Part shown: positions 5,075 to 27,989 of the stretch, in pieces
Layout of the letters: the number at the start of each line of letters is the position of its first letter
Position numbering within the stretch: the first letter of the stretch is position 1
Source of the DNA: Nymphaea colorata
Lineage: Eukaryota > Streptophyta > Magnoliopsida > Nymphaeales > Nymphaeaceae
Assembly: GCF_008831285.2 (NCBI RefSeq)
Contig: NC_045149.1
Coordinates: 8,336,417-8,400,416 of the forward strand
Length of the DNA: 64,000 nt
Direction: 5' to 3'
Notes under the pieces: generated by a model
What the model was told of the DNA's origin: nothing
The model's database searches: none
The model's input: the letters and a program-made list of their open reading frames with translations, nothing else
Position numbers and translations under genes: made by a program

Positions 5075-5082
5075 CTGCACAC

Positions 5083-5465
5083 TGTTGGATAGTGGCCATT
5101 GAGCCCTATCCGGGGATATCCCATAACTGCTAAGCAGTTACGAGATTATGCTCATCCTTTTCCCTAAAGTCTCTCCCTCATCCAAACCGCTGCTGAGCTG
5201 AGGGGAAAACCTAAGGGGCTGTCCTATTTAAGCTCAGTAACTTTCTATTAGGAAATCACTCGTTGATTACCCTTGAGGAGCCCCTTCGAAGCAAACCCCT
5301 AAATCTGACAGCTTCTAACTTTGTGCTCTTCTTCCTCTTCTTCTTCTTCCTCCCACTCTGTTTCTTCCATTACTGCTATTAGTCACGTGAAGGCTAAATC
5401 TCGAGCATCCGGTGGTGAATCAGTTGAGGAGCTTGAGACGTCGTTCCACTGCCTTCACTCCAACA
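5083..5465 (+). repeat. Cop-1 5' LTR
   Basis: It starts TGTTGG and ends CCAACA, a perfect 6-bp terminal inverted repeat, 383 bases in all. It matches 11050-11363 with scattered differences. A TATA-like CTATTTAAG at about 5223 could be the promoter. Confidence 0.9.
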
Positions 5466-5466
5466 G

Positions 5467-5478
5467 TGGTATCAGAGC
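5467..5478 (+). other. Cop-1 primer-binding site (tRNA-iMet)
   Basis: TGGTATCAGAGC lies one base after the LTR end. This is the standard copia primer site complementary to the initiator-Met tRNA 3' end. Confidence 0.95.
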
Positions 5479-6866
5479 ACAGGAGATCAACGTTTGAAAA
5501 AGGTAAGTTGTCTTCTTGCAATATAGTGCACAGACAGTGTATGCCTAGAGCATGCTATATTCAAAGCTATGTTGTATACATGAAGGATGCTAGACTAAAT
5601 AACTTGTTGTACATGAGGAATGATATCAGATGCATGCTAAATTGATAGCTAATCTGAATGTAAGAAGCATGTCGTCTGTAGTTCCCTGAAACAATCTATG
5701 TGCACTGTAATTCTAGAAGGTGAAGGCTTTCTATTATACTCTACCAAAAAATTTGTTTTGTCATGAATTTTTTTTTATGCGTCCATATTTACTATGGCTG
5801 TGGTTCTAGAGGATAGAGGGTTTCTGGTCTATGGCGCCGTAGACTAGAACCCTCTAGTGACAGGTGTCAGTCCGCGTTGTCGATCTCTCTGAATCGTGTT
5901 TCAACCCTGATTGATGCTTTTAAAACGGGATTGGATAGATAATCATATGTGCCAAATTAGGGCAGAGAATATACCTTGACCAGTTTTTTTTTCTACACTG
6001 GACTGTCTGTCGCAGCTGAAAAACCATCTTCTTTTTCTGGCGAACCTAAATCAGAAATCAACCTACTTCGTCCCTGTTGCCTGGCTTTGTTTTCTCACTT
6101 CTCTCAGAATATCGTCGGTGGTAGAAGGAGAAGCCTAGGTAGAGACTGCCGTCACTCGTGCAACCAGAGTCTCCCTATTTTCTTGGATGTTGACCCAAAA
6201 CCCAAACGAAAAGAAGAGGGTTTTCATTCTGCTCGCTACTTGTAAGGAGGAGCTCCGGCCGCTCTCTGAGTGGTATGAGGTCACTCCTCACAGTATTGGC
6301 GGAAGATGGCCGGAAAGTGAGCAGTGACGGCGGGAGAGGCGCTGCGGAAGGCCTTTTTGCGAAGAGGGGACAGCAGCTCGAGAGAAGAGAGAGAGTATCA
6401 AGCGGAAAAATGAGGAAAAATCAAGCGAAAAGGGTTTTATAGTCGAGGTTTGAAAATTGTGAAAACAGTCCACCTTTTATGCGTTATTTTTGAAAAAGCC
6501 GCAATATTTTTGCTGAAAAGTTTTTCAAAAAGATGCTCGTGAAAGTTATTTTCAACAGAAACCAGAAACTTTATAAGAAAATGCTTTTGGGTACCCTCAG
6601 AGTTATTATAATTTGCTAAAGGTGGGATCACAAAATTTGTTTTGAAATTTGAGCAGAAGACTGTGCTTTTATGCAAAATTATGTTCACAAAATAGACTCT
6701 GAAAAGAGATGCATGTTGTAAATTTTAATCAAAAGTCTTCTTCTTCTAAATATTATTTTAGAATGTTGTTTGAGACCTCTTGATGTGATATTTATTGTGA
6801 TATGTTTTTCCCTTTTATTATTGTTCTTTACTTGCCATAAAAATCAATTTAGAAATAACATCAAGA
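5479..6866 (+). other. Cop-1 untranslated leader
   Basis: About 1.4 kb separate the primer site from the gag start, with no conserved reading frame. A GGTAAGTT donor-like site lies near 5501. Purine-rich sequence at 6245-6430 has no recognised product. Confidence 0.6.
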
Positions 6867-7715
6867 ATGGGAGCCTCTGAATTACGTAAGACTGAAAAAC
6901 TGAATGGGACAAACTTCCATGCATGGAAACGTAGGATAATGTTGGCCTTGACTTTGGAAAGACTCATTTATGTGATCAACCAGCCTTCTTCCACTTTAAG
7001 AGATAAACCTACAGATGAGGAAAGAAAGGAATATGAGTCATTTACCACTGATAACCTGATGGCTAAAACCATCATGTTAACTTTCATGGAAGATGATCAA
7101 ATTATGGTATTTGAGGATTGTCCAACGGCTAAGGAAATGTTTGATATTATATCTTCCAAATACAACACCACTACTGCAATGCACGTACAATTACTGTTAG
7201 AACAGTATAATTCCTATAAGATGAAAGAGTCAGACAATGTAATAGACCATGTTAATAAGATGTTGATCATGGCTAAAGATTTAGCCATAGTGGGGAATGT
7301 TATATCTGACAACATGCAGATTAGCACAATCCTGAACAGCCTACCTCCTTCTTGGGATATGACAGTTACTGCCTTGAGTCTTCAATTTGATAATCTTACT
7401 TTAGAAAAGATTACTATACAGTTAGCTTTACAACAACAACGTCTGGCCAAGAGAAAGAATGCAGAACTAATGACAGTGCAGGAAAAACCTGCTAGTAGTC
7501 ATGTGCCTGTAAGACCCAAACAATTTAAAAATCGGAACGATGGCAAGTTTAAGGGTAATTTTGCAGGTACTAAGAAATCTCAAGGAATTGTAGTGAAATT
7601 CTACAGATGCGGAAAGCCTGGGCATATCAGGAAGAACTGTAGGACAAAATTCCCAAATAAGAAAGATAACAATGGCCAGGACCACAACAACAGGAGGAAG
7701 CCGCAAGGAGACTGA
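6867..7715 (+). CDS. gag: Cop-1 gag polyprotein (capsid-nucleocapsid)
   Basis: This 282-codon frame starts MGASELRK and has copia gag features: the NGTNFHAWKRR motif near residue 15, a helical capsid region (roughly residues 50-190), and a basic C-terminus with a zinc knuckle near residues 247-259. The knuckle should read C-x2-C-x4-H-x4-C but reads FYRCGKPGHIRKNC, so the first cysteine is phenylalanine. The protein would package element RNA into virus-like particles. The ATG was chosen because the family motif starts about 14 residues later. The frame stops where the next one, shifted by one, begins. Confidence 0.88.
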   Translation: MGASELRKTEKLNGTNFHAWKRRIMLALTLERLIYVINQPSSTLRDKPTDEERKEYESFTTDNLMAKTIMLTFMEDDQIMVFEDCPTAKEMFDIISSKYNTTTAMHVQLLLEQYNSYKMKESDNVIDHVNKMLIMAKDLAIVGNVISDNMQISTILNSLPPSWDMTVTALSLQFDNLTLEKITIQLALQQQRLAKRKNAELMTVQEKPASSHVPVRPKQFKNRNDGKFKGNFAGTKKSQGIVVKFYRCGKPGHIRKNCRTKFPNKKDNNGQDHNNRRKPQGD

Positions 7716-7717
7716 TA

Positions 7718-8184
7718 GAGAAGTCATTTGTGTCATGTCAGAATGTTTGTTTGCAGATGGGGATTACACTGGTTGGTGGGTTGAATCAGGAGGTACTCGT
7801 CACATTGCAAAGACAACGGAAGGCATGATTCACATGAAAGAACTGAGTCTTGGAACAAACAATGTCTACATGAGAAACAACTCATATTGTGATGTCATGG
7901 GAGTTGGGGCATATCGACTAAATGTTAGGGGTACTAGTCTCGTACTCAATGAGGTTTTGTATGTCCCTTCGTTGAGAAGGAATCTTGTGCCTGTTCCCGC
8001 ACTGACTGGGAAAGGTTTTGAAGTTCGATATATTCCAAGGAAAGTAACAGTGGGAAAACATAGAAGGTCCATGTTCCATGAAAAATTTGTAAATGAACAT
8101 GGTATGTTCAAACTTAATGATATGAATAAAGCTTCCAGTTCTACTTATTACGATTGTGCAATGTGTGTCAATGTAAACTTATAG
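7718..8184 (+). pseudogene. pol: Cop-1 protease and pre-integrase region
   Basis: An aspartic protease region follows gag in a different frame, with overlapping frames at 7672-7715. The active-site motif is ESGG where copia proteases have DSGA, so the catalytic Asp is replaced by Glu. The flap-side motif VLYVPSLRRNL is recognisable. The frame ends at a TAG before the integrase zinc domain. That domain continues as HERLSYIS, where the family has HERLGHIS, so one zinc-binding histidine is also lost. Confidence 0.8.
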
Positions 8185-9147
8185 CATGAAAGATTAAGCT
8201 ATATAAGCATCAAAAAAATGAAAACTCTAGCAGAATAGGGTATAATACCTGACACAAATATAAATGATTTGACGAAATGCGAGTCGTGTGCATATGGAAA
8301 GATGACAATGAAACTATTTTTGTCTGAAGTAATTCAAACCACTGAACAATTAGAGATAATTCATACTGATATCTGTGGACCTTTCAGAGTCCAAACTCAT
8401 AGTGGCAAGTTATACTTCATAACATTTATTGACGACTTCACAAGATTTGGTTATATATACTTGATTAGACACAAGTCAGAAGCACTTAAGAAATTCAAGG
8501 AATACAAATCTGAAGTTGAGAGACAAGTTGGGAGGTATATTAAAGTTGTAAGGACTGATCGAGGAGGAGAATATACTTCTAATGAATTCCTCGAATACTG
8601 TAAAGACCTTGAAATTAAAAGGCAAAAGACAATGCCTAGGACACCACAACAGAATGTTGTGGCTGAGAAGTATAATAGAACCCTCTTGAACATGGTGAGA
8701 TCCATGTTAGCAAGTGCACAATTACCAAAAGTTTCTTGGGGTGAAGCTGTGTTAACAGCTATGTATATAATAAATCGAGTGCCCTGCAAAGTAGTCCCAA
8801 CCACTCATTATGAGAGATAGACTGGTGTAAAAACAAATCTGAGACATCTGAGGAGATGGGGATCTGTAGCACACGTGAAAATTCTAGATCAAAAAATGGA
8901 TAAACTAGATATCAGATCAGTAAAATGTGTATTTATTGGATATCCAAAAGGATTCAAGGGCAACAGATTATATCATTCAACTATGAGACTTATAGAAAGC
9001 AGAAATGTAGAGTTCTTGAAAGAACTCAATAACAAAGATATTGATCCAGTTGAATATCGAAATGATATACTGGATGAACTGATTTATTCAGAGGAACAGT
9101 CTGGTAATGAATTGACTGGAGGTCAGTTAATGAACCAACTAAGCTAG
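8185..9147 (+). pseudogene. pol: Cop-1 integrase
   Basis: The core frame 8269-8820 carries the D-D-E residues in HTDICGPF, RTDRGGEY and the QQNVVAEKYNRT block, so the catalytic triad is present. Stops interrupt it at about 8182, 8236 and 8818. A downstream piece (8875-9147) holds the conserved CVFIGYPKGFKG motif of the copia integrase C-terminus. Integrase would insert the cDNA copy into the genome. The stops make it non-functional. Confidence 0.85.
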
Positions 9148-9399
9148 AATCGTCTGAGGAACAGTCAGGTAATGAACCGACTGAAGATCAGTTAGGTAAT
9201 GAACCAACTGATCTGAGTACTTCGTTATCTCAGACGTTATCAGGTCATGAAAGACCTAAAGCTCCTCCTTCATATTTGAATGATTATATATGTATCTGGC
9301 AGAGGAGCTATGCTATTCAGCAGATATTGATGAAATGTCTGACAATCTGACATATGACGAAGTCATAAGCTCCCATAAATCGTCAAATTAGATGAATGC

Positions 9400-10892
9400 T
9401 ATGGATGAAGAAATTGAATCCATAGAAAAGAATAAAGTATGAGAATTAGTAGATCTTCCTAATGATAGAAAACCCATTGGATGCAAATGGGTGCTGAGGA
9501 AGAAATATAAAGCTGATGGATTAGTGGAAAAATTCAAAGCCGGACTGGTGGCAAAAGGTTTTTCCCAAAAGGAAGAAATTCACTACTCAGAAACCTATTC
9601 GCCGGTTGCAAAGTTTGCATCAATTAGAATAATTTTGGCTATCGCAGCATTCTATGACTTGGATATTTGTCTGATGGATGTGAAGACTGTTTTCCTGAAT
9701 GGTGAGTTGAAAGAAACTATATATGTGACTCAACCACATGCTTATGTCATCAAAGAAAAGGTAGACAAAGTATACAAGCTGAATAAATTGTTGTACGGAT
9801 TGAAGCAGTCACCGAGACAATGGTATTTTTCTTTTCACAAAACAATTACAAAACTTGGGTTTGTTGCAAACCAACTAGACCACTGTGTATGTCTGGAAAA
9901 GTGGGAGCCTTTTCTGTATTCTATCATTATATGTTGATAACATATTACTAACAGGAAATGATAACGACATAATATTCAAAATGAAGATATGGCAGAACAA
10001 GAACTTCAAAATGAAAGACTTGGGTGAAACATCCTATATATTAAGAATAAAGATCACTCGAGATAGAAACTCAAGAATCCTGAGTTTAAGCCAAGAATGA
10101 TATATTGATTATATCTTGATGAAATTTCATATGTTAGACTGCAAACCAGTTGAGACTCCTATAGCTAAAGGAGTAAATTTGAGTAGGAGTGATTGTTCTA
10201 GTGAAGGATAACAAAACTTAAATGTTCCATACGCACAAGTTGTTGGCAGTCTGATGTATTTAATGCTTTGTACTAGACCAGACATAAGCTTCCGTATCGG
10301 TCTGGTGAGTCATTATCAAAGTAATAATGGATGGCCTCACTGGCAAGCAGTCAAAAGGATTTTTCGGTACATTAAAGGAACGGAAAGACTGAAATTGTTC
10401 TATCAAGCAGATGAACTAACTTTAGTTGGCTATTCTGATGCAGATTTTGCAGGCTGCAAAGATGACAGTAAATCCACTTCGGGGTATGTTTTCCTCTTTG
10501 GAGGTGGAGTGATAGCCTGGTCCTGTAAGAAACAGGGATGTATTGCTCAGCACACACAGGAAGCAGAGTATGTAGTATGTAATGTTGCAACTACCTTTGC
10601 TGTTTGGATAAATCGGTTCTTGAAATATTTGAAATTAAATCTTGATCATGAACCAGTTCAACTATACTGTGATAATCAGACAGCATTATCTCTAATGAAG
10701 AATGGAGCTGTTAGCTCAAAGCGTAAACATATACTGGTCAAATGCCATTATGTTCATGAAATGATAGAGAAAAATGAAATCTCGGTGGACTATTTGCCTG
10801 CTAATGATATGGTACCTGATCCCTTAACTAAGGGGATATCTGAAAACTTCTTTTCTAAACATGTTGCTCATATAGGGATAAGATATATTTGA
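9400..10892 (+). pseudogene. pol: Cop-1 reverse transcriptase and RNase H
   Basis: The RT starts near GCKWVLRKKYKADG (9480) and carries DVKTVFLNGEL and LYGLKQSPRQW. A frameshift follows at about 9890-9940, and the catalytic motif is YVDN instead of YVDD. RNase H (about 10254-10892) has SDADFAG, EAEY and YCDNQ and ends DPLTKGISENFF. Further stops lie at 10098 and 10209. The order RT then RNase H at the 3' end is copia-type. Its closest relative in the window is Cop-6 (53298-54638). Confidence 0.9.
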
Positions 10893-11586: not shown

Positions 11587-11759
11587 TAATTGATATTTAC
11601 TTTATTCACATCCAAAAAATAACATCTTAAGGTGACAATTTCACATTCTAAAAAAAGAAATCAAGCTGGATGAACTCGATTTTTCAATGTATTTTTTTTA
11701 TAATTACCTTATCAGTTTTCATTGTGTTTGTAAAAGAAAAGGTTGAAGATCTGATGTAC

Positions 11760-11960
11760 CTGACCGCCACCACACAATCATTCCCACCGGCCCGATCGAA
11801 GTCCAGTTTGATGATGCCTGAGAATTTGCCCTTCGAGTCTCCCTTCGCCATGAATGCGTAGCGGTTCTTTCTGCCGAGGAACTTGGGGTTGATCATTCCA
11901 AACTCCAAGCTCCTCGCCGTCAGTGGCTTCCTCCCCACCAGCTTCCCTTCCCTGACATTG
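11760..11960 (-). pseudogene. CCD4-like: CCD4-like penultimate exon, truncated (copy A)
   Basis: Read on the minus strand it gives REGKLVGRKPLTARSLEF, INPKFLGRKNRYAFMAKGD and KLDF..GNDCVVAVR, the conserved CCD segment before the last intron. A donor site (CAG|GTACAT) lies at 11758-11760, and spliced to the exon at 5074 it would keep frame (AG+G = Arg). Upstream, homology to copy C (52159-52828) stops at 11960 and unrelated sequence follows. Roughly the first two-thirds of this exon and everything before it are gone. Confidence 0.85.
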
Positions 11961-11984
11961 TTCCTACCTCTATTATTACTTTGT

Positions 11985-12255
11985 ACCCCTGTCATTATCT
12001 CATACATATTATCTCCCTTGTCATTATCATATTCTTGTTGTTATCTCATAATCATGATCTCATGTCTCCTTATACGACAGGAGTATGAGATAATGATAAA
12101 AGTATAAGACAATGGGTATAAGATAATAATAGAAGTATGAGATAATGAGTATGATATAATAACTAAAACATGAAATAATGTGTATGAGACAGCAATAGAG
12201 ATATGAGATAGTGATAGATGTGTGAGATAACGCTACGAGCGAGACAAAAAAAACA
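11985..12255. repeat. Degenerate TATGAGATAATG repeat with inverted arms
   Basis: Many imperfect copies of TATGAGATAATGA occur on the plus strand from about 12075. The complement (CATTATCTCATA) occurs at 11990-12060, so the block can fold on itself around 12065. No protein is encoded. It starts about 25 bases after the CCD4 copy A break and may be linked to that rearrangement. Confidence 0.65.
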
Positions 12256-13742
12256 AAGACACTTTTTTGCAATTTACAGAGGCGTATTGGTCATAACGAT
12301 AAGCAATACTAATTGACAAGTTTTGTTATATTGAATCCTAAAATCTTGTTTTTACAGTTTTCCGTTTTGCCCCTATAAATTTTTTTTATATTAATCATGG
12401 GTATTTTTTGTCATGATTAAAATGGCCCACGAAAAAAACATACACAGCAGGACATATGTAACCAGCTTCGTTCAATTGAGAAGCATTTGGCTGTAGATTT
12501 TCTTGAGATGCAGGCAGCTTAAGCAAAAAGAAACAAAAAAAAAAAAAGACTAAACAAAATTAATAAGAATAAGAAAAATGAGAAACAAGAAAAAGAAGAA
12601 AATAAAAAAGGAACTCATGACAAATTTCAGCATCCATAGTTGAAGGGGCAACTGACATCATCTTTTTTGCAATATGATGTGAAATGAAATGAAGATGCGT
12701 ATAACAAAAATATGCGTATAAAGTACAGAGAGGGAGAGAGAGAGAGACGAACATACCTTTGAGCCGGTAGGATTGAGTAAACAATGGAAAAAAAAGTCTG
12801 AAAAAGGAGGAGGGCTCATCTAGTTTTTAAAGTAGCCAAAGATTTACTGGCACAAATTTTTTCACGTTACTAAAATTTTAAATATGTGTGGGAAAGGAAG
12901 GAAGGGGGATGTTTGAAATAATAACCTTTTTTGACACAGAGTATGACATCACTAATGATTTGATTTTTTATATTTAAAATGAATGGAGGAGATCAAATAA
13001 TTGAAACTTTACTAGCGTTTACAAACATCGTAACAAAAGATGTCACCTGTATTAACATTGCCCACAAAAGCACCACTAAAAAAAAGAGTTGGGAAATTTT
13101 CTATATGACATGACTGACGTTTTAATGTACGAGTCAGTAATGATTGACCTTTACTTCATGTTGTTGAAGGTTCTCACATCGTAGACTTACACTGGTGAAT
13201 GCTCTCATAACTACATGCTTCATCACATACGGCAAAAAAATCATTGAACTTTCTATAGATTCACACATTTACTGAAGTTTGACAAGTATCATCAGTAATG
13301 ATTTACCTTCACTAACGTTTGCTACATGTCATTGAAAGTTTTCACCACAATAGACCCACAGTGGTAAGCAATTTCACTGCTATGGGCTTCTTCTTATGAA
13401 CTCTACCGAAGAAAGAAGTTTCAGGTCACCAGGATCCACTGCACGTTAGTATTGGTGCCCCTCCACTGATACACACACCCAAACACCAGTAAAGATGAAA
13501 GTTTACTGACACGATTTTTTCCACAAGTCAGTAAATACCCATTTTCTTGTAGTTTGTGAAGTTTGTCATTAGTTGAAAACAGTGTCTAGCACAAGGCAAT
13601 CGTTCTAACTAAAAACAGTTGTCAGGCAACCAATGACAATTCAAACATGACTTTATGGTCTTACTCAAACATCAAGATTCTGGCTAAGGGTACTTATTCA
13701 AACGTACCATGATTTCAGCACACATGCTCAAACATCTGTATC

Positions 13743-13795
<53 letters not shown>

Positions 13796-13989
13796 GGTTA
13801 ATAAAGCATCTAAAAATGTCGGGCTTCATCACACATTTCTTTATTCTTCTCACGATAAAAGTGTTCAAATTAACAAGTTGAAAACAAAAAATATCAGCTT
13901 AAGTATAAAAAACAATGTGAATAATTCAATTGGAATTTGATCCTTCAACACCTTTCCTCAATCCCAGGCCTATCTAGTTGAAACAAGTG
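12256..13989. other. AT-rich DNA with a CACTA-like end, no gene
   Basis: No coding sequence was recognised. Around 12840-13553 several short words with CAGTAA/TTACTG recur. The right edge reads TTTTCTTGTAGTTT, close to the complement of the CACTACAAGAAAA end of plant CACTA transposons. No matching left end was found, so this is at best a truncated non-autonomous element. A (CA)n-(TA)n microsatellite occupies 13746-13796. Confidence 0.35.
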
Positions 13990-14519
13990 GCTAGAGATCT
14001 GCTCACTCTTTGAATTGCAGCTACTTGCATGTGTAGAACTTGGTACGTACCGTGCTTTACCCAAAAGAATGACAGTGAGAGTTTTGTTCAACTTCCATAT
14101 TCTCAAGGGGACCTTATATAAATAATTTTTTGCATCGAAAGTGACCATGAGAGTGTGACTTTTCTTTGTTTAGAAATTCAGTAAGGTGGCGCAGATTTCC
14201 ACCTTCAATTGGATTTAACAGTAGCGAGTTAGACAAGCTTTTTACTTCCCCAACTCACACTGTTGACAAAGCTAGGAAATGACAATGTGAATTTAATATT
14301 AAGGTTTTTCAAGGTTCTTCCTCATTTGAGGTGTTGAAAAGGCACATTTTGGGGCTCATTAGGAATAACACAGCTCATTGTCAATTTGATTGCCTCTGAG
14401 TGGCTCACCGAATGCCATAAATTTGGATCTTGCAACGATATTGAGGGAAAAAATTAATGTTGATGGTCGGTTGATTAATATAGGCCTAACTATTTTGAAC
14501 CTGCTGTTACACTATCTAG

Positions 14520-15246
14520 CATAGAACCTGGTGATCTAACTATAAAATAATTATTGTTTGCATGCAATTACTAGCTATTTAGATGCTTATTTTTAGGGAA
14601 GTATAACGAGTCAAGCCAACCCAGGTTTGACTCGGACTCACCCGTGTAAGCTCAGCTTGAGCTCGACTCATCTAACAAACAAGTTGAGCTCAAGCTTGAT
14701 GAGTTAAAAGTCAAGTTATAAGCAAGCTGAGTTTGAGCTACATGAGCTCAACTCGTTAAATCTGACCACACTCTTGTCTTCCCTGTTAACCTTCATGAGC
14801 ATGTCGGTAATTTTTTATGAATTTAACACCCTTTTTAGTTGTTTTCATTTTCAGTTAAAGAAAAAAATTATATAAGTCATGTGACAGGAGTTTAAAGGAG
14901 CCAATCTCAAGCTCAGACTCAGTTTATCAAGTGGAGCTTTAGATCCGCTCAGTCAATGTACATTCCTATTTGTTTTAACAATATTGTTGGAAACTAGTAT
15001 TTTCAGCAAACATGACTGACTTATCAAAGCAAAGTGTTTTTTGAATAAAAAAAATCTTTACAAATTTTACCATGTGGAGGCATGCTAGATATAAAATCTG
15101 TATTGTAACTTCTCTTTTTTTTTTTTCTTTTTTTTTTTACATAGCTTCAGATGGACTGTGGATTTATTATGGGAAAGGTTTTCAGGCGTTGAGGTCTTCA
15201 CCTTTTTGAATGCTTCTGCTGGGACTTGGAAGTAGCTAATTTTGAT
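14520..15246. repeat. Direct repeat unit, copy 1 (with hAT-like GAGCTCGACTC segment)
   Basis: It is collinear with 17160-17880. Both copies start ACCTRGTGATCTAA, contain a segment rich in CGAGCTCGAGTY words typical of plant hAT-like MITEs, then AAAGCAAAGTG, and end with GAGGTCTTCACCTTT just before a hairpin arm. No coding capacity. Confidence 0.75.
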
Positions 15247-17166
15247 TCAGACTTATCTAGAGAAATGAATTCTTCTCATTCCTCCTACCTTTCTTGAGTT
15301 CTTGTTGGCACTTTCTCTATATGTCTAATTAAATTTCAATTTCTTTTAAAATATGAGGCATTCTACACAAGTTAAGATCGGTTGCTGCACATTAATACAA
15401 AGTTTTAGGAAATTAAGAAAAATGTGGCTTTGCCAAATATTGTGGGAGAAAGGAAAAGGTGAAAACAACAAGCATTGTTCAGAATGAAGTGAATCGACCA
15501 AGATATCACCTCTTTGCTTTTATTGGTGCCCCTTCTCAACCAAAACTGATTTGTGCATACAAGCCGGTGCACAAAAAATTGTGCATGGGCCAGATGTATA
15601 ATGACCAAAATACTTCGACTAAGTAAAAAAAAAAACCCTTTTACAATGACCAAAAAAAAGTTATGAAAAAGTTAAAAGTCTAAAAATTACATTTTTATAA
15701 AATTTTTTAAAATACCCCTACCCATTTTTTTTTTCCTTGGGTGCATTTATATTTGTTGCATGCACCACGTGATGCACGCAACTTGATCTTGAGCATAAAA
15801 GGAAGTCATTGATTCTAACATCTTTGTGGCTGTCGAATGTTCTTGTACAGAATAAATCGACAAAAAACCTTCATATAATATAAAAAAGGAAAAAGCAATC
15901 TGATTCATCCGTATTCGAGCCAAATAAACAATGAAGAACAAACAAGAAGAACAACAGTCAAACGGCACTGTACGACTTCTGCAGTACAACAGAACAGGAT
16001 CAATGGCTCATGCCAATTTCTTCGATCCTAGCCATATACTTCAAAATCCATTCCACCAACAAAGGGGAAAAAAAGAAAAACAAAAAACGAGTTCCCCATG
16101 GCACAAAAAGAGACAGGCCATAACCCTAAACGAGATACCCATAACCCTAAACGAGATACCTCAGAAAGAAGAGAGAAAGAGACGGAGCGATGGAAGAAAG
16201 ATCGTACCAGTGCGGCGTGCCGAACATGAGGGCTGTTGGTGCACGGGAAACCGAAATGGGCGTTGGAGAAACACTGCCGGTATGCACCTCCGAACCACTC
16301 GGAGGTGCGTACCGGCAGTGTTTTGCCAACGCCCATTTCGGTTCTCCATGCGCCAACAGCCCTCATGTTCGGCATGCCGCACTGGTACTAGCTTTCTTCA
16401 GTCACTCTGTCCCTTTCACTCTTCTTTCTGAGGGCCCTCATGTTCGGCATGCCGCACTGGTACGAACTTTCTTCCTTCGCTCCGTCTCCTTCTCTCTTCC
16501 TTCTGAGGTATCTCATTTAGGGTTATGGCCTGTCTCTTTTCGTGTCATGGGGAGCTCGAAGGTGACGTTGGACTGCCATTTTTTTGTTTTTCTTTTTTTC
16601 CCTTTCTTGGTGGAATGGATTTTGACGTATATGGCTAGGATCGAAGAAATTTCCATGAGCCATTGATCCTGTCCTGTTGTACTGCAGAAGTCGTACAGTG
16701 CCATTCGACTGTTGTTCTTCATTGTTTCTTTGGCTCGAATACGGACTCGAATACGGATGAATCAGATTGCTTTTTCCTTTTTTATATTATATGAAGGTTT
16801 TTTGCCGATTATTCTGTAAAAGAACATTCGACAGCTACAAAGATGTTAGGTTTAAAATCAATGACTTTCTTTTTTCAATTTTCTGGAAAGAAATAAAGCA
16901 AAGAGTCGATCTGTCGGTTGATTCACTTGGTCTTGAACCATATTTTTTTAATCCTTTCCCTTTCTCTCATAATATTTGGCAATCTCACCTTTTTCCTTCC
17001 TGAAAAGTTGCTATATATTAATGGGCAGCAACCGATCTTAATTTAAGTAGAATGTCTAATATTCTTCTTTATATGAACTCGAAATTTAGTTAGATAGAAG
17101 GGTGCTAATAGGATCTCAAGAAAAGTACGAGAAATGAGAATGAGTGATTTCTTTTGATAAGTCTGA
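15247..17166. repeat. Large imperfect palindrome (hairpin)
   Basis: The left arm (15247-16293) and right arm (16299-17166) are reverse complements along nearly their whole length. Outer words TCAGACTTATC (15247) face GATAAGTCTGA (17156). The arms continue through AAGATCGGTTGCTGC (15376), GTACGACTTCTGCAG (15970) and CCGAAATGGGCG (16251) with their complements in order. The centre is a perfect 10-bp stem at 16284-16293 and 16299-16308 with a 5-base loop ACCAC. The left arm has an extra insert (about 15540-15790). The right arm has a 75-bp tandem duplication (16359-16508), and the left arm has a doubled 20-mer at 16120-16160. All reading frames over it are unrecognised. Confidence 0.88.
15540..15795 (-). 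repeat. MITE-like insert in the left palindrome arm
   Basis: These roughly 250 bases have no counterpart in the right arm. They contain the words AATGACCAAAATACT and long T/A runs. Complementary words (AGTATTTTGGTCATT) occur in the CCD4 flanks near 3870 and 50480, which points to a dispersed short element. The insertion came after the palindrome formed. Confidence 0.5.
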
Positions 17167-17170
17167 CCTA

Positions 17171-17441
17171 GTGATCTAAATATCTAAATCCTTGTTTTTA
17201 AGGGATGTACAAGTCGAGTCGACTCAGGACCCACTCAAACTACTTTGTGCAAACTTGACTTGAGCTCGACTCATTTAATGAACAGCTTAAGCTTGAGTTA
17301 AAACTCGAGTTATAAGCGAGCTGAGTTTGAGGAAGATGAGCTGACTTGTTTAAACTCGATTCAATTCATGTCTTCCCTGTTTGTTACCCTTTTGGGCATA
17401 TTGATTATTTTTTATGAATTTTAACACCCTTGTTTATGTTT

Positions 17442-17472
<31 letters not shown>

Positions 17473-18160
17473 GGTGAATCAAGTGACATGAGTTTAAACA
17501 ACCCAAACTGAAGCTTAAACTCGGTTTACCGAGTAGAGCTCGAGGTCAACTCAATCTAGAGTCAAGCTCGAGTTTGGCTCGCCCATTATACATTACTAAT
17601 GATTTTAACAATATGGTTGAAAGCAAGTACTGTTCACCAGACATGAAGGACTTGTCAAAGCAAAGTGCTTTTTGGATAGAAAAAAAAGACTATAAATTTT
17701 ACCCATGACGTGACATGGTAGATGCAAAATCAATTTTTAACTTCTCTGAATTGTTTCTTTTGCTTAGGTTAGTTTCAGGCAGACTGTGGATGGATTATGG
17801 TCAATTTTTTTCAGGCATTGAGGTCTTCACCTTTCCGAATTCTTCTTCTAGGATATGGAAATTGCTAATTTTGCTTCTTGTCTAAAGAAATGACTCCTCC
17901 TCATTCCTCATACCTTTCTTGAGTTCCTGTTGGCAACCTTCCAGAAAAGTTGCTATAGATTAATGTGCAGCAACTGATCATAATTGGGCAGACAGCCTAT
18001 AATATTCTTTTCTTTGGAATTTGAAATTAATTTAGATAGAAGGGTGCTAACAGGATCTCAAGAAAGGTATGAGAAATGAGAAATAATCATTACTTTAGAT
18101 AAGTCTAAATTACAATTAGCTACTTCCATATCCTACCAGAAGCATTGAAGAAGGTGTGAA
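17171..18160. repeat. Direct repeat unit, copy 2, ending in a short hairpin
   Basis: After the part shared with 14520-15246, sequence 17835-17945 (CTTCACCTTTC ... CTTTCTTGAGTTCCTG) is followed at 18040-18160 by its reverse complement, with a spacer of about 95 bases. This is a small version of the hairpin at 15247-17166: it shares the outer stem but lacks most of the interior. A (TA)n tract lies at 17445-17472. Confidence 0.75.
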
Positions 18161-18800
18161 CAAGATAGAGTTTGTGTCTACCATGTCTTGTCAGGGGCAA
18201 AATCTTATACTTATGTGTGGTGTGATTTTGTTAATATCCACTCCTAAATTAAAAAAATTCAATTGCAATGCACACATATAAGAACAAAGAGGGCTGTTCA
18301 AATTCAAAATCTTGCTCAGAACTTCTTCATTAAGGTCTAATGCCCTTACAATTATTATATGCTTACACGACAGGAATTTTGGTTGTTGCACACGGGAAGA
18401 ACAAAGTGGCTCAAAATAGTTTCAGCCATGGTTCTTAGGCCTATTTGCCAGTGTTTTGGCTGTGGCCTATGGCATATCATGTTGTTGCAAAGGAAGAAGC
18501 TTGGAAACCCCTAATAATAAATTCACATTGTCCTTTCCAAACTACTTCACGATTGTCATTCAATAACTTACTAACTCACTGTTATCAAATTTTATTGAAG
18601 GAGAAAACCTGAACCACCTTACCCTACTTCTAAACAAAGAAAAGGCACACTCTAGTGGTCGATTTTAACATATAAAAGATATGTACATTGCCCCTTGAGA
18701 ATGTGGTAGTGGAACCCACAGACATCCTTTTGGGTTAAGAATGGTACCAACTTCTACGGAGGCAAGCAGCTGTAATAAGTATCTTCCTTTGTTGGAAGCC

Positions 18801-21800
18801 GCTGTCGTCGGCCGCCATAGGTGATCTTCTGAGCTTGGAAGCAAATGGCAACTTGGAGAGATAAGAGAGGGACACATGGAAGATAAGGAGAGAGAAGAAG
18901 ATGTTGGAAGCTGTTAGATCACCACTGCGGAAGGGAGAGGTCATGTTGTTATATATATATATATGGACAAAACCGGGACACTACCCACTGCAACTCTCCT
19001 GAACCCAAATGGGTATCTCTTTAATAGTTTTAGTTGTAAAAAAGCTTACTATAGGTTAAATTTCCTTGGATAGTTAAACACGAAGTGAAGGGTGGCTGGC
19101 CGCTGGTTTCCATTTATGATGATATCAGATTCTAAATCGATAGCTTCTTATTGGAAGCATTTAAACACAAAAGTATATCAATTTACTTTCCCAATCAAAT
19201 TCTCGAGCAATCTTTAGTTTCCCAGCTCATTCTTTCTCCTAGTTAATGAGAGATATCTTTCTTGGATTTGAAACAGAGTTTGACTCGGAAAGGGAGCCAA
19301 AGGGGGAGATTAATTATGGTGTTGAGGAGAGAGAGTCGATCGGTCCTATTTATTCCACCCTAAATATTTACTATTAATTTCCTACAATAGCTTTTTGTTT
19401 TATTTTTTTCAGAAATTAAAACATTTGGTATAACATTTTAAACACTTATTTTTTGGGCCCAATTTGTCAAAAGTAACATATTGTTATTATCCCATGAACC
19501 TACCTCAATATGTGGAGTAGATTCATAAAACACTTGATATCATGTCCTATCAATTTGTCAAATACAGGTTCTACTAAGTGCATCTTTAGCTTTGATGCCT
19601 CAGGATGTTTTTTTTTTCCTTTGGAATTAGGTGGTGTGTCACTATCAGTAAACTTTCCTTGGATGAGAATAGTTCTAAAATCTACAAAGAAGCAAACCAT
19701 CTTCCTGAAATTGAATTTCTCATTCAAAAATCTCTTTACATTATGTTCGGATAAAGGGGAAAGAAGAATATTAAAGTAAATAAAGGTAGAAAGGAAAAAA
19801 AAGGATGGGATTAATGGTGGAAGGGGGAGAAAGGGATGGATAAGTGCTATTATAAAACCTTTTCTGAATAGTAGGAAAAAATAAACAATTTGTTTCATAA
19901 ACCCCATGTATCTTTCAAACCCTCTTTCTTAAGAGGAGATTGAGGCCATTAAAATGAACTTAATTAGATTAATTATCCTTCCATATTTTCTAGTTTAGTA
20001 CTTATTTTTATTAATACACGTAAATATTAATTGTAGACTGCTAAAAATTTATGTTGAAAACGACATTGTATACTATCAATTTAGTTCTCGAACCATCTAA
20101 CAAAACCTAGCTTGGGGGCCAGGGAAGGGCATCGTAAATAGCATCAAAATCAAAGCGCTAATGTCTTGGCAGGATACAAGTAAACACAGGCTACAGCCTA
20201 CAGCCTACAGTACCGGGCCCGGGGCTGGGCCCAAGTTGGGCTGGGTACGGTGCACCTATTGATGGTCGGTCAGGTCTCCATGTACTGTCACCTCCTTTCG
20301 ATGAACATTGTATTTTTGTACTTCCAACTTTATGTAATGATCTAGATCATGTTTAATATTTTTCAATTTCCGGCTCATCAGACATGATCTAGGCATTTGA
20401 ATTTTTGCACTTTTTCAGGACGGTTGGATTCAACCAAGATAAAGTGCTGAAGAGAAAAACAAAACAAATTTTACAATTTTTTCAATTTTCACTAAATTTT
20501 TCTCTAATCTACTTTATAGATGCAATTTTTAGATCCAACGAATTATATATATGGAAGATAATAAATATTTATTAATGTATAATCATAAATTTTAAACTCA
20601 AGGCTTGTTTGAGACCTTTTTCCTTACAGTGTCAAGTTTGAGGATAGGGAAAGAGCTAGAAATTTTTCATGAGGCAGGTCAAATTAAAGTTTCTAAATTT
20701 TAACTAGGGCTAAAATATCATTTTTCAAATTTTTTATACTAAACAAGTGATTTTTTTTTAATTTACATGTAAATCTTTTTCAAAAAGGCTTTGAAGTGGG
20801 GCCATGGGCCATGCCGGTCATACCTTGGCTCCACTGGTGAGGACGATCTTGGACACGATTCCTTGGGCTGTCGATGATCGCAGAAGAGCAGCCCACCACC
20901 ATGGACGAAGGATGTGCTCACGATGGTGATTGCTACAAATTAGGACTTCTTGACGCTGTTTCGATGTGACGACAAAGATAAAACGTGGAAAAGCAGAACT
21001 ATGGCTGGAGGAGCTGTGAGGATATTGGATGGTGTTGTGAATAACACGACATCAAAAAAATTGAAAAGTATGCCAATGATCATTACCCACGAATGTGACC
21101 GTGGCATAGGTAGCCCATGGTCCTGTATAAAGATCCTGCAGCCTGGACCACAGGAGCTTTATTTGCTCAGGATCTTTTGTTAGGAGAAGCGTTTGTCAAG
21201 GCTGAATTTGGTTATCTGTGCCATATTGGTGCTGGATTTTTTGTCGCGAATATAGTTAGTAACGAAAGTACCCTTAGTTCACATTCAAAAAAAAAAAATT
21301 TGTAAAGACAAAATTAGAAATAAAAAAAATAAAAAAAAGACTATGAAAGATATTTCTTTTTAATAAATTACCAAAATATCTTCCCTCCTTTACGGGTCAG
21401 GCTCAATTAGATTTCTCTCAGTCAATCAAGGTAGTTTGTGGATAAGGATTGGAAGAGGTGCCATTCAAAACAGGGTGAGTGAAGAAACAACAGTGATCAC
21501 CAACCCGATAGACTAATCAAAAGTGTTACTGCAAAAGTGTTACTATTATCAACAATGCAAAACAAAATCATTGCTTATATCATCACGGGATATAAAGCCA
21601 TTGCCGTTACCACTGTTGCCGTAAAAACCATCGAAGTTAAATCAGCAACCAGCCGTCACCAACACTGTTTGCGACAAGTTTTCCATGTCAGAGCTTCTAC
21701 TGATCTTAGAAAGTAAAAAATGTGTGTAATAACGCCCATCACTTCAAAATGTCTATCATGAACATGTGACCCTCATAAGTGAGTAGAGTCACCCTTGTGT

Positions 21801-22313: not shown

Positions 22314-22692
22314 TGTTAGCAATTATGGAAAGGAGATCACCACAAATTGTAGAGAAGATCAATCGCATAACAGCCAATGGCCTGATCCTTTGGTAAGCGA
22401 TGAAGATGGCAACGATGTTGTTGCAATCATCACAGCGATAAGGCAAAATTCTGAAAACAAGGAAACCAGATCTTATTAGGATAAGGAAGATCCTTATAGC
22501 GTAGATCCTTAGTACGCTATATACAAACTGCCTTATAGCGTAGATCCTTAGTACGCTATATATATCCTTCACGCCACCTGTACTAAATCAATAACAATTT
22601 CTTGGCGTGTTTTCCCACCGTGGACGTAGGCTTTCTTAAGTTGAACCACATTATATTCTGTGTTTGCTCTGCTCCTACTCTGTTTTTCTATA
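22314..22692 (+). repeat. Cop-2 5' LTR
   Basis: It starts TGTTAGC and ends TTTTTCTATA. It carries two tandem copies of a palindromic block TAGCGTAGATCC..TACGCTA (22497-22519 and 22536-22558). The 3' LTR has one. Confidence 0.93.
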
Positions 22693-22705
22693 TGGTATCA
22701 GAGCC
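22693..22705 (+). other. Cop-2 primer-binding site (tRNA-iMet)
   Basis: TGGTATCAGAGCC lies immediately after the LTR. Confidence 0.95.
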
Positions 22706-22709
22706 AACG

Positions 22710-23978
22710 ATGGCATCTATTCCATCTTCATCCACGCTGGTACAGATTTCTTATCCTTATCCTTATTCTATCAACGTCTCCAACTTTGTTTCTCTTAAGC
22801 TGCGACCAGAGAACTTTCTCTTATGGAAGACACAAATTCTCGCTCTTATTGAAAGCCAAGATCTTCAAGGCTTTCTCACTGGAGACATTGCTGCTCCTGC
22901 TGAATTCGTCATTGATGCAGTTGATCCTTTAGGCCAGAAAAGGACTGTTAATCCCCAGTTCACGGCTTGGAAGAAATCAGATCGCCTCGTCAAGGGATGG
23001 ATAATCAGTACCTTGACCGAAAGCACTCTTGGTCGAGTTGTTGGTCAAGAGACATCAAGGGACATTTGGAGCTCTCTTATGGATGCCTACTCTCGCAAGT
23101 CGAGAGAGAGAGAGTTTCATCTAACTCATTTGCTTACATCTCTCAAAAAGGGTGATGATTCTGTTGATGAATACATTAACAAATCCAAAGCAGTCTGTGA
23201 TGACCTTGCTGCCATTGGGAAACCTGTTGATGATGAGGCACGAGTTTATTGGCTGCTCCAAGGACTTGGTGATGGATATGAAGCCTTTGTCACTGCCATG
23301 ATTCGACCTCCTGCTCCATCCTATGAAGAAGTTGTCCCACTCCTTCAAAGTTTTGACACTCGCATCAAAGGTCCCACTCCCCCTCTTATGGCTATGGTGA
23401 ACCAACGTCAACCTAACCATAGTCATGGTCGCGGTCGCAACTACAATAATAATAGAGGACGCAATCACAATCAGTTTCAAATCAACGATTCCCACTTTCC
23501 CAAATCTGATGATCAGAAAAACAAAAGTGCTGTTGTTTGTCAAATATGCACAAAAAAATACCATTCTGCTATTAAGTGTTTTGAACGTTTCAATCATGGT
23601 TATCAAGCAGAAGGCACTCAACAAGCCATGACTGCTCTATCCCTTGATGATGGAAACAACGCTGAATGGTTAGCCGACTCGGGAGCCTCCAGCCACATGA
23701 CTGGCGATGTGGGTAAGATTTCTAACAAGTCTATTTATCATGGTTCTGATCATGTGATTATTGGAAATGGTAAATCTTTGCCCATAACTCATACTGGTCA
23801 AGGAAATTTGGTCGTTCGTGGTTCTCATATTCCTCTCTCTAAAGTGTTATACATTCCTCAATTAAAGAAAAATTTGTTGTCCGTAAGTCAAATAACCACA
23901 TATTTACCTTATACCTTTGAGTTTTCCTCTCCATCTTGCTGCTTAAAGGACAGGAGAACGGGCAAGACAGTGGCGTAA
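22710..23978 (+). CDS. gag-pol: Cop-2 gag and protease
   Basis: I chose the ATG at 22710, just past the primer site, because an earlier in-frame ATG (22602) lies inside the LTR. Gag motifs: FVSLKLRPENFLLWK (near residue 30), WKKSDRLVKGWI, DEARVYWLLQGLG. The zinc knuckle CQICTKKYHSAIKC is intact. Protease follows with WLADSGASSHMT (intact DSGA active site) and KVLYIPQLKKNLLSVSQ. The frame ends at a TAA at 23976; beyond it the same frame continues as integrase without another break. The stop is one change from CAA (Gln). Confidence 0.9.
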   Translation: MASIPSSSTLVQISYPYPYSINVSNFVSLKLRPENFLLWKTQILALIESQDLQGFLTGDIAAPAEFVIDAVDPLGQKRTVNPQFTAWKKSDRLVKGWIISTLTESTLGRVVGQETSRDIWSSLMDAYSRKSREREFHLTHLLTSLKKGDDSVDEYINKSKAVCDDLAAIGKPVDDEARVYWLLQGLGDGYEAFVTAMIRPPAPSYEEVVPLLQSFDTRIKGPTPPLMAMVNQRQPNHSHGRGRNYNNNRGRNHNQFQINDSHFPKSDDQKNKSAVVCQICTKKYHSAIKCFERFNHGYQAEGTQQAMTALSLDDGNNAEWLADSGASSHMTGDVGKISNKSIYHGSDHVIIGNGKSLPITHTGQGNLVVRGSHIPLSKVLYIPQLKKNLLSVSQITTYLPYTFEFSSPSCCLKDRRTGKTVA

Positions 23979-25949
23979 GGCAGTAAGAAAGTTGGAGTTT
24001 ATGTCATTGGAGATTCTAATGGCACCGTTAAAGATTGTAGTCATTTTCATGAAGCTTTCTTTTCATCCAGATTTAGGGGTGTTTCTACTGATTTTTGGCA
24101 CTCCAGGCTTGGTCATCCGCATTTTGGTGTCATCAAGTATCTTCATCAAAATAATTTAATTGACGTCAGTTCTTCAGTTCCTCAATCTACCATCTGTCAT
24201 AGTTGTCAGTTAGGCAAAGCATGTAAACTTCTGTTTCTTGAAAGAGAAAATAGAGCTATGGAAGTTTTTGGAAAAATTCATTCTGACTTATGGGGACTGG
24301 CACCTATTGCGTCGCATCTTGGGTATCGCTATTATGTTATTTTCACTGATGAGTGGTCACGATTTACATGGTTGTATCCATTAAAATGCAAGTCTGAATT
24401 TTTTGATTGTTTTGATCACTTTAGTATGTGTGTTGAAACTCAGTTCAATACAAGAATAAAAATTTTTCAATCAGACATGGGAGGAGAATACACTAGTTCA
24501 AAATTTACTCAACTCTTGGGCAGTCTTGGCATCAAACAGCAATTTTCCTGTGCTCACACGAAACAGCAAAACAGCATGGCTGAAAGAAAACATCGAAATA
24601 TTACCGAGTTAGGCTTGATTATGCTTTTTCACTCTGGGGTTCCTAAACAATTCTGGTTTGAGGCATTTAGCAGTGCAGTTTTTCTCATAAATCGTCTGCC
24701 TTCATCCTCCTTGAATATGGATTCGCCATACCTGAAATTTCTTGGTCGGCAACCTAAGTATGATTTCGTGTGCATTTTTGGTTGTTGTTGCTTTCCATAC
24801 TTAAGGGATTATGCAAAGGACAAACTTGAGCCCAGATCCCTTCCTTGTATCTTTCTTGGCCATAGTATACATCATAAAGGATACCGCTGCATGTATCCGG
24901 GGACAGGCAAGATTTTTGTTTCTCGTCATGTCTGCTTTGATGAACAATATTTTTCTTATAAGAATCCTGCAAAATTATATGATGGACGTGGACTAACTCC
25001 AGATTTAATTTCTTTTGATGAATGGACTGAGCTGCATGGTTCACACAGTCAGAAATCCATTGAACATCCTCCATCCACCGTAGTTGATGATCAGCCTACT
25101 ATTCATGAAGGAAATGTCAGCCACCCTCAAGACATTCTCATACAGTCTTGTGCTGGAACGCCTCTTGACATTGATGATCAGCCTACTATTCATGAAGGAA
25201 ATGCTGGCCACCCTCAAGACATTCTCATACAGTCTTGTGCTGGAACGCCTCTTGACACTGCCCAAGAACAACCAGCAGTCAATCATATAAGTTCAGATAG
25301 CTCTACCCATATGGATCAACATCAGGACGTCAATAATGTGCTACTGGAGACAGACCACCTTGCAAGCCCTGAAGCAAATGTTTCATCTCAGACTTCTACG
25401 GATTCTATCGCTAGTCCTGCGAGAACCAGGACCACCAAATCTATGGTGGGGACATATAAGCCTAATCCAAGGTATGCTAATCTTCATGTCTTATATGAGA
25501 ACATTCCCAAAGAACCCACTAATGTCAATCAAGCTTTGCGTCACGCTGGATGGAAGAAAGCTATGGACGATGAGAAGAAGGCTCTCATTGAAAATAGAAC
25601 TTGGGTTTTAGTTCCTTATGACCACACGATGAACTTGGTAGGATTCAAATGGTTGTTTAAAGCCAAGTTAAAATCTGACGGGACCCTAGACAAACTGAAG
25701 GCCAGACTTGTTGCTCGGGGATTCTCTCAAAAGGAGGGTATAGATTTTCATGAGACATTTTCTCCAGTTGTGCGACAAACCACGGTTCGAATGGTTATCA
25801 CCGTTGCTCTTGTTAAAGGATGGGCTCTCAGGCAGCTGGATATTAAAAATGCTTTCTTGTATGGGATGATTCGTGAAGACGTGTACATGCAGCAACCCCC
25901 TGGATACATAGATGAATCCAAGCCTGATCATGTCTGCAAATTACAGTGA
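23979..25949 (+). pseudogene. pol: Cop-2 integrase and reverse transcriptase N-terminal part
   Basis: It is open throughout in the gag frame. The zinc domain reads WHSRLGHPHFGV then CHSCQLGK. The core shows D-D-E in HSDLWG, QSDMGGEYTS and QQNSMAERKHR. The C-terminal motif CIFLGHSIHHKGY precedes a linker holding a perfect-length 29-residue tandem duplication (25086-25259). RT begins near NRTWVLVPYD and has DGTLDKLKARLVARG and LDIKNAFLYG. A TGA at 25947 replaces an expected Arg codon in the block before ALYGLKQ. Confidence 0.9.
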
Positions 25950-27036
25950 GCTTTATATGGTTTGAAGCAAGCGTCACGAGCATGGTATGCCAGGTTAAGT
26001 ACTTTTCTCCTTGATTATGGGTTTTCTATCAGTTTTGCCGATCCCTCCATGTTCACCTTGCATCAAGGACCTGTTACTCTCATACTTTTAATATATGTTG
26101 ATGATATGATTCTAACGGGAAGCTGCGCGTTAGCCTTGTAAAAATTTGTTGATACTTTTTGCTGTGAGTTTCCTGCTAAATATCTTGGTCGCCTAACTTA
26201 TTTTTTAGGCGTTGGAGTTGCCTGGACAAATCAGGGCCTCATACTTTGTCAAACAAAGTATGCAAAGGATATTTTGGAAAAGGCTAAGATGGAAGACTCT
26301 AAGCCCTGTAACACTCCCGTGAGTACAAAAATACATAAACTACAAGCAGAAGACAAGTCTTTTGATGATGTTACCTTTTACAGGCAAGTTGTTGGTTCAC
26401 TTCAGTATCTTTGTCTTACTCATCCGAACATCTCGTTTACCGTCAATTACGTCAGCCAGTTTATGCATGCCCCGTTACACTCTCACTTTCAAATGATTAA
26501 ACGTATTTTGTGTTATGTGAAAGGAACTCTACATTTTGGGCTTCAAATTTTGAAGCAAAGTACCTTGGATATATATGCCTTTTCAGATTCTGATTGGGCA
26601 GGTTGCTCCCATACTAGACGTTCAACCACCGGTTTCTGTATATACCTTGGTGTTAATTGCATTACTTGGAGTGCCAAGAAACAAAATATTGTTTCTCGAT
26701 CCAGTGCTGAGGCTGAGTACTGAGCTATGGCATCGATGGCAGCGGAGCTTACATGGGTTCAGTTCCTAATGAAAGACAGGGATTCAAATAGGTAAAGCTC
26801 CTGTGGTATATTGTGATAATAAAAGTTCCTTCTTTATGGCAGCGAACCCTGTGGCTCATGGAAGAAGCAAGCACATTCAAAATGATTTTCACTATGTTTG
26901 AGAACGTGTCGCTCAAAAACAACTTGCAACAAAATTTATCTCTTCCAAAAATCATATTGCAGACGTCTTTACCAAAAGTCTAGCCAAGCAAGTCTTCAAC
27001 AGTTTACGGATCAAACTCGGCCTTATTCTGCGGCCT
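25950..27036 (+). pseudogene. pol: Cop-2 reverse transcriptase and RNase H
   Basis: It continues ALYGLKQASRAWY. The catalytic YVDDMILTG is intact. RNase H shows SDSDWAGC, SRSSAEAEY and, after a one-base frameshift near 26780, YCDNKSSF and HIADVFTKSLAKQVF. In-frame stops are TAA at 26139, TGA at 26721 and, in the shifted frame, TGA at 26899. Each sits where CAA or CGA is expected. Confidence 0.88.
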
Positions 27037-27050
27037 AGTTTGAAGGGGAG

Positions 27051-27420
27051 TGTTAGCAATTATGGAAAGGAGATCACCACAAATTGTAGAAAAGATCAGT
27101 CGCATAACAGCCAACGGCCTGATCCTTTGGTTAGCGATGAAGATGGCAACGATGTTGTTGCAACCATCATAGCGATAAGGCAAAATTCTAAAAACAAGGA
27201 AACCAGATCTTATCAGGATAAGGAAGAAATCTTTTGTAACAAAGGCAGTAGCAAACTGCCTTATAGCGTAGATCCTTAGTACGCTATATATATCCTTCAC
27301 GCCATCTGTACTAAATCAATAAGAATTTCTTGGCGTATTTAACCACCGTGGACGTAGGCTTTCTTAAGCAGAACCACGTTATATTCTGTGTTTGCTCTGC
27401 TCCTACTTTGTTTTTCTATA
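27051..27420 (+). repeat. Cop-2 3' LTR
   Basis: It matches 22314-22692 with few differences. It follows the polypurine tract directly and is followed by the target duplication CTCAG. Confidence 0.95.
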
Positions 27421-27480: not shown

Positions 27481-27613
27481 ACGATCATGAGCCTACACAA
27501 ATGACCAATTTAAATACTAATCACAAGCCATGAACATTACTCCACAGTAATTCTTTCTTCTTCTACCTCCTCTTCTCATCTTCTTCATCATCTGCTAAAA
27601 TAACAAAATTTTG
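27481..27613. repeat. Remnant of the CCD4 3' flank (copy B)
   Basis: AATGACCAATTTAAATACT..CACAAGCCATGAACATTA (about 27500-27560) resembles the gene-downstream words near 4670-4720 and 51195-51250, in the same orientation. This places copy B in the same array and orientation as copies A and C. Confidence 0.55.
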
Positions 27614-27623
27614 AGGTGAGCAG

Positions 27624-27832: not shown

Positions 27833-27989
27833 TGAAACCAAGATATTTGGAGTCCAATATGTAAAAAAAAGCTTCCAACGGAATTCTCTTTGTATTTTTT
27901 ATCCATCAATTCCCATTTAGGACCCTAAACTAAGTTGATTGACAAAAGCCAAAGCCCCCTCTTTTTCCTTACTCGAGGGTTTAAAGTTA

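Follow-up and report, generated by a model that had tools for sequence, protein, structure and literature searches.

A layered palindrome in Nymphaea colorata: probable fold-back insertion of a segment related to DNA upstream of a PP2C gene into an older inverted repeat

The near-palindrome at 15247-17166 of the window (the whole 64,000-nucleotide stretch analysed here, C12:8336417-8400416) raises the question of how its inverted arms arose, and whether the long hairpin RNA that they could form serves gene silencing. A preliminary description had taken it for one palindrome of the type that feeds siRNA production or young MIRNA genes. The reading favoured here, which we regard as probable, is that of a non-coding, layered palindrome with a duplicated outer layer and an inner core formed by fold-back repair, presumably acting as a passive, methylation-attracting repeat without a selected target.

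Local alignment recovers the near-palindrome with the limits, arms and centre originally described, the arm alignments scoring 628 and 217 versus a maximum of 33 among 30 first-order shuffles. The inverted arms therefore stand, but the notion of a single structure does not: self-alignment of the arms resolves two nested inverted repeats of different age, an older outer one enclosing a younger inner one. In the inner repeat (15797-16293 versus 16873-16299, score 628) 449 of the 489 ungapped columns are identical, with 94 gap columns in addition; in the outer repeat (15247-15524 versus 17166-16892, score 217) this holds for 214 of 264 ungapped columns, with 25 gap columns. The arms have aged, as had been supposed, their identity amounting to 90-92% in the inner and 81% in the outer layer; within a multiple alignment including the sister copies, 427 of 477 inner-arm positions are identical. 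The centre (16284-16308) reads GCACCTCCGA-ACCAC-TCGGAGGTGC, a perfect 10-bp stem with a 5-base loop. Tandem duplications within the arms, of 21 bp (16118-16159) and 75 bp (16359-16508), are likewise real, although they are private to the window and missing in both sister copies. What had been read as an insert into one arm at 15540-15790 is instead the loop of the older palindrome (15525-15796), which matches the loops of three core-less paralogues at 70%, 73% and 92.5%. Further out, 14014-14405 pairs in inverted orientation with 18776-18424, and a second, weaker hairpin is located at about 17838-18146. The parts of the locus and its neighbouring context are:

11684-12040, minus strand: carotenoid dioxygenase (PF03055) fragment, neighbouring context
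14014-14405, plus strand: outermost inverted arm T, partner 18424-18776 (inverted local alignment; BLAST 14014-14322 versus about 18491-18776, 70%)
14576-15310, plus strand: spacer S and start of the outer arm; direct repeat at 17181-17935, 71%
14594-14938, no strand: dispersed repeat inside spacer S, with matches on many contigs
15247-15524, plus strand: outer (older) palindrome, left arm (arm alignment)
15525-15796, plus strand: loop of the older palindrome, also in three core-less paralogues
15797-16293, minus strand: inner palindrome, left arm (arm and paralogue alignment)
15797 to about 15886: distal part of the left inner arm, repeating the right flank (16779-16873) in inverted orientation
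15882-16293: proximal part of the left inner arm, inverted C1-like sequence
16118-16159, no strand: 21-bp tandem duplication, absent from two sister copies
16284-16308, no strand: centre, 10-bp perfect stem and 5-base loop; C1 there has CCGCCGA-ACCCGC-TCGGAGG
16299-16873, plus strand: right arm of the inner palindrome, resembling C1 as far as about 16783, the remainder being the old loop's right flank
16359-16508, no strand: 75-bp tandem duplication, absent from two sister copies
16892-17166, minus strand: outer (older) palindrome, right arm (arm alignment)
17181-17837, plus strand: spacer S, second copy
17838-18156, no strand: smaller hairpin B, about 70% self-complementary over 17838-18146
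18424-18776, minus strand: outermost inverted arm T′ (inverted local alignment)
28983-29528, minus strand: carotenoid dioxygenase (PF03055) exon, neighbouring context

A coding origin of the palindrome was rejected, as the two open reading frames spanning its centre matched no family in a Pfam scan. A search for tRNA genes found none.

In the assembly searched (407,766,735 bases in 783 contigs) the core-bearing palindrome occurs in three copies on C12, at 8.276, 8.312 and 8.352 Mb, the last being that of the window. Each is located on the 3′ side of a dioxygenase copy, at a distance of roughly 4 to 9 kb, and in the window the C-terminal piece of the nearby dioxygenase copy is inverted. Core-less relatives are found at C12:13559048-13562941 (L013), at 13548023-13550917 (L012) and, in inverted orientation, at 8270838-8273445. 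L013 matches the window piecewise over a span from 12598 to 21003, which identifies the two as segmental duplicates and not as independent insertions. On the left side this match is unbroken up to window position 15799, and on the right side it restarts at 16779. The counterpart of 16779-16873 is present in L013 once only and unpaired, and the three filled copies lack about 52 bp of the L013 loop, the core standing in their place. From the continuity of L013 without the core and the match of 15525-15796 to core-less loops it follows that the core is an addition and the older palindrome its host.

Copies or fragments of carotenoid cleavage dioxygenase (PF03055) are located on the minus strand of the window at 4819-5145, 11684-12040, 28983-29528 and 52062-52886, the best-matching solved chain being that of a 9-cis-epoxycarotenoid dioxygenase (3npe). 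Additional dioxygenase pieces, assigned by similarity only, are seen at 51422-51721 and, inverted, at about 27607-27834. The ORF list further contains Copia-type gag/pol-like frames at 6801-10892, 22587-27279, 37587-41726, 44267-48128 and 53298-54671 (minus strand). A tandem array of 7.6 copies of a 45-bp unit with at least one open frame per strand occupies 60692-61025, and a two-copy, 119-bp tandem duplication with 100% identity lies at 41122-41359.

Comparison of an arm with the genome, proposed earlier as a way to the donor, yielded C1:30971074-30971493 (locus L014) as a relative. This segment matches both inner arms as one single, non-palindromic copy, with 84-91% identity over 360-433 bp, and self-comparison of the C1 locus gave no self-inversion over the core-matching part. 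In the 8.312-Mb copy the two arms are 90.8% and 90.0% identical to it, in the 8.276-Mb copy 91.1% and 87.2%; for the window the values are 83.6%, 85.0% and, over a 148-bp piece, 88.5%. About 3.5 kb downstream of the core-like segment, at C1:30975018, PP2C exons of the same orientation begin (PF00481, two matches). A nearer open reading frame with a plausible start codon (L014:6220-6681) had no Pfam match. The captured segment looks like upstream or intronic DNA relative to PP2C, and may be promoter, leader or intron. The identity between arms and C1 (0.867-0.906) is close to that between the arms themselves (0.895-0.923); the C1 sequence is thus the best relative found and the probable donor, direct donorship being a step beyond what such similarity proves.

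At the position of the palindrome centre C1 reads CCGCCGA-ACCCGC-TCGGAGG, an inverted repeat that is perfect over 4 bp and imperfect over 6 of 7. The palindrome retains CCGA-loop-TCGG of C1, and outside these bases the sequence turns back as a copy of itself. Two features of a fold-back insertion are hence present, namely two inverted copies of one segment at one site (as seen from C1 against both arms and from the core-less L013) and a short inverted repeat at the turn, CCGA-ACCCGC-TCGG in C1 as the best relative. Both joins were read by eye from the alignment and show putative microhomology that is short and of low complexity: on the left AAA(G) is common to the old loop and the inverted copy, and on the right the join falls within a T-run common to C1 and the loop. 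The left inner arm moreover repeats, in inverted orientation, about 90 bp of right flank (16779-16873) that L013 has only once; this suggests that the filler was already attached to the right end when fold-back copying took place.

Taken together, the sequences are consistent with the following course of events. First, the old outer palindrome would have originated on C12 through inverted duplication of a low-copy unit (T-S-P). Its loop would later have suffered a break or a stalled fork, repaired by means of a segment related to C1:30971074-30971493, as the arm comparisons support. During this repair the new strand may have folded back on the short inverted repeat CCGA...TCGG and been extended as a copy of itself and of about 90 bp of right flank, after which rejoining would leave the inner palindrome. 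Finally, as the common flanks show, the block was duplicated on C12 and its copies aged separately. Since filled copies, core-less copies and the probable donor are all contained in one genome, each step of capture and fold-back, at the tip of an already existing palindrome and in what seems to be a plant germline, can be followed.

The PP2C-upstream region appears in inverted form elsewhere, too. Two mutually related loci on C5, L015 (C5:6600000-6607000, positions 3190-4253) and L016 (C5:6485000-6492000, positions 2789-3558), carry inverted pieces of positions 2691-3184 of the C1 locus, with another centre, inside a larger inverted repeat. We read these PP2C-upstream pieces as a second, separate capture.

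Alternatively, the outer part may represent a non-autonomous DNA transposon bearing long terminal inverted repeats (a fold-back element or MITE) which captured a gene fragment in its interior, as Pack-TIR elements do. Nested inverted arms reaching 14014 and 18776 would suit such an element, as would the PP2C-upstream fragments between long inverted repeats in L015 and L016, and a capture in the middle of an inverted repeat, with putative microhomology and core-less copies, resembles what is reported for single-copy Pack-TIRs (PMC8277862). However, hairpin B has at least 28 matches (from 16 scored candidates), all of them confined to C12 in two clusters with common flanks, which show segmental duplication; visual inspection of the termini of the window and L012 copies revealed no target-site duplication, and the two scanned palindrome ORFs are without a Pfam family. 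The transposon origin is consequently considered doubtful. On these matches a dispersed MITE was set aside: dispersal is seen only for the central part of S (14594-14938), a repeat found on many contigs (249 first-look candidates, 40 of them scored, at least 44 matches). Among the places examined, T, S and P segments elsewhere are limited to partial, single-armed relatives on C10 (L018) and C5 (L029). The former (C10:5001000-5008000, positions 3470-4231) is a single-armed relative of outer arm and loop and adjoins the 5′ end of a 537-amino-acid minus-strand ORF, which we take to be TBL-like. The latter (C5:7788000-7797999, positions 5071-5628) resembles T and the end of S in a single arm, the dispersed repeat of S between them being absent.

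A further layer of evidence on the favoured reading, the passive repeat, comes from the kind of substitutions that the three sister loci have accumulated. Non-CG C-to-T changes (on either strand) affect 40 of 497 sites in the arms versus 30 of 802 outside, that is in loop, spacer, hairpin B and right flank (odds ratio 2.25, p 0.0014), whereas all other changes are about equally frequent (82/1531 versus 119/2382, odds ratio 1.08, p 0.66) and CG changes are not enriched (19/105 in the arms, 12/71 outside). Taken alone, the inner arms have 27 such changes in 310 sites (p 0.0013) and the outer arms 13 in 187 (p 0.07). Hairpin B, which is paired but more weakly, shows no excess (3/106). With C1 and L013 as outgroups replacing the majority, and without the columns that cannot be polarised (59 inner, 24 outer, 199 flank), the counts are 29/427 versus 21/618 (odds ratio 2.07, p 0.017), with other changes equal and CG changes at 19/97 versus 4/47. 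Leaving out the changes of any one copy gives ratios of 2.06-2.25 (0.86-1.33 for other changes), and when the arm mask is shifted circularly, 18 of 780 shifts yield a ratio at least as high as the observed one. The left flank, most of which is absent from sister copy B, is excluded from the final set as misaligned (0.093 changes per site). In an earlier set with the left flank, comparison of the inner arms with the flank gave an odds ratio of 1.98 (p 0.0012) for GC-to-AT changes per GC site, of 3.61 (p 0.098) for CHG and of 1.66 (p 0.088) for CHH.

As the test was chosen post hoc on one family with three copies, we take the enrichment as an indirect hint of past methylation. Such a footprint is compatible with the silencing reading, without requiring transcription. 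Inverted repeats in plants attract methylation, which at PAI1-PAI4 is described as independent of transcription (PMC9263138); the footprint therefore fits methylation driven by DNA structure and methylation driven by small RNAs alike. In its present role the palindrome would be a passive inverted repeat which draws DNA methylation by either route, through its structure or through hairpin-derived small RNAs. Should the footprint hold in other palindromes, it would provide a sequence-only test of inverted-repeat methylation over evolutionary time.

A more far-reaching proposal is that the DNA upstream of one PP2C gene has repeatedly given rise to inverted repeats, on C12 and, with another centre, on C5. 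As natural hairpin loci these would guide RNA-directed DNA methylation both to their own sequence and to the parent gene, and the resulting non-CG C-to-T scar would be restricted to the paired arms. We hold this to be unlikely; if true, the scar could reveal past dsRNA-directed methylation by sequence alone.

It was also considered whether the locus is a functional long hairpin or of the young MIRNA type, transcribed, diced and kept for silencing of the PP2C gene or its relatives. The predicted RNA fold is long and stable, with -1075.6 kcal/mol versus -439.5 to -514.7 kcal/mol for 10 shuffles (mean -464.6 kcal/mol), and 675 of its 763 predicted pairs cross the palindrome centre. The opposite strand folds with equal energy into a different structure of 778 pairs, so that transcripts of either strand are predicted to form a long hairpin, as the preliminary description had it. 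Further points in favour of function are exact 21-mers common with the C1 locus (90 of 477 in the left inner arm, 27 of 555 in the right), the presence of the PP2C-upstream region in inverted form also on C5, and the precedent of natural inverted repeats such as VIM4-VIM2, reported to produce siRNAs that silence relatives in trans (PMC13213937).

The substitution pattern argues against this. Across the six inner arms of the three loci 95 of 456 complete columns are variable. In 110 cases the change is in one arm only, against just 7 sites with changes in both arms of one locus, the change being the same at 4 of these. Among the single-arm changes, 34 would keep a wobble pair in a plus-strand transcript, 32 would do so in a minus-strand transcript and 34 break both, a count which excludes 12 changes whose partner is changed as well and columns lacking a four-of-six majority. 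Changes that are mostly one-sided (110 versus 7) and the absence of a wobble bias (34 versus 32) give no sign of selection for pairing. The 21- and 75-bp duplications within the arms, private to the window, likewise speak against a maintained hairpin. An Rfam scan of the window gave no family at the gathering score, although a young MIRNA need not be in Rfam; a known RNA family, including any described miRNA family, was rejected on this basis. A segment from upstream or intronic DNA, as the captured one seems to be, would moreover make a poor mRNA target. A diced and maintained silencing locus is accordingly judged distinctly unlikely, and a selected function of the hairpin in general unlikely. 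Of the earlier silencing reading, the predicted hairpin, the relationship of the arms to DNA upstream of a host gene and their age are borne out, a sign of selection for pairing is not, and the reading as such is possible, with indirect support from the mutation footprint.

Fold-back chimeras are known in long reads, and a 286-bp duplication with 100% identity in L015 on C5 suggests that local assembly errors are possible elsewhere, but an inverted arm made by assembly or sequencing from a fold-back chimeric read, named earlier as a possible refutation, is very improbable in view of inner arms that differ at 7.7-10.5% of aligned sites across three C12 copies, which have a common architecture and yet their own private differences.

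Among known systems, the layered, fold-back-derived palindrome is close to the distant inverted insertions of yeast. In rad27 and RPA mutants complex insertions are reported to consist mostly of two inverted pieces of one distant locus, with inverted pairs in 15 of 23 cases for rad27, 14 of 18 for rtt105, 3 of 3 for rfa1-t33 and 9 of 144 in Dna2-deficient cells (PMC11724301). Here as there, according to this source, two inverted pieces of one distant locus are found at a break, a presumed one in our case, with a turn on microhomology (4 bp perfect in our case) and a small gap, which in yeast accompanies some of the mutants. The yeast microhomology is given as longer at the turn (median 6 bp, range 2-11) than at the ends, which are joined by the shorter matches (PMC11724301). 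In contrast to yeast, the event described here is an old germline one that took place within the loop of a palindrome already present; its arms measure about 0.5 kb, and one of them takes in about 90 bp of local flank as well. The inverted pieces reported for yeast are shorter, with medians of 50 bp (rad27) and 150 bp (rtt105) (PMC11724301).

Single-copy Pack-TIR elements of animals are described as inverted-repeat elements with interior fillers, microhomology and filler-less orthologues (PMC8277862). The gap-filling ones among them share with our locus a foreign filler in the middle of an inverted repeat, a small gap and filler-less copies, and their microhomology has a putative counterpart here. 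Unlike in Pack-TIRs, the filler is itself palindromic here and the outer element is only a candidate transposon; the relative of the filler lies on another contig, whereas 59.8% of Pack-TIR fillers are stated to derive from the same chromosome (PMC8277862).

With VIM4-VIM2 of Arabidopsis Cvi-0 (PMC13213937) and PAI1-PAI4 (PMC9263138), as these sources portray them, the palindrome has in common an inverted repeat with homology to a host gene located elsewhere. Contrary to both, it contains no whole genes, its source looks upstream or intronic, and it is known from sequence alone. Human fold-back inverted duplications, finally, are reported to have short inverted sequences of 2-8 bp at the turn point in 13 junctions (PMC3907307), similar to the turn observed here. 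The human cases in that report are large chromosome rearrangements with spacers of 766-70,466 bp, in comparison to 5-6 bases at the centre of the present palindrome.
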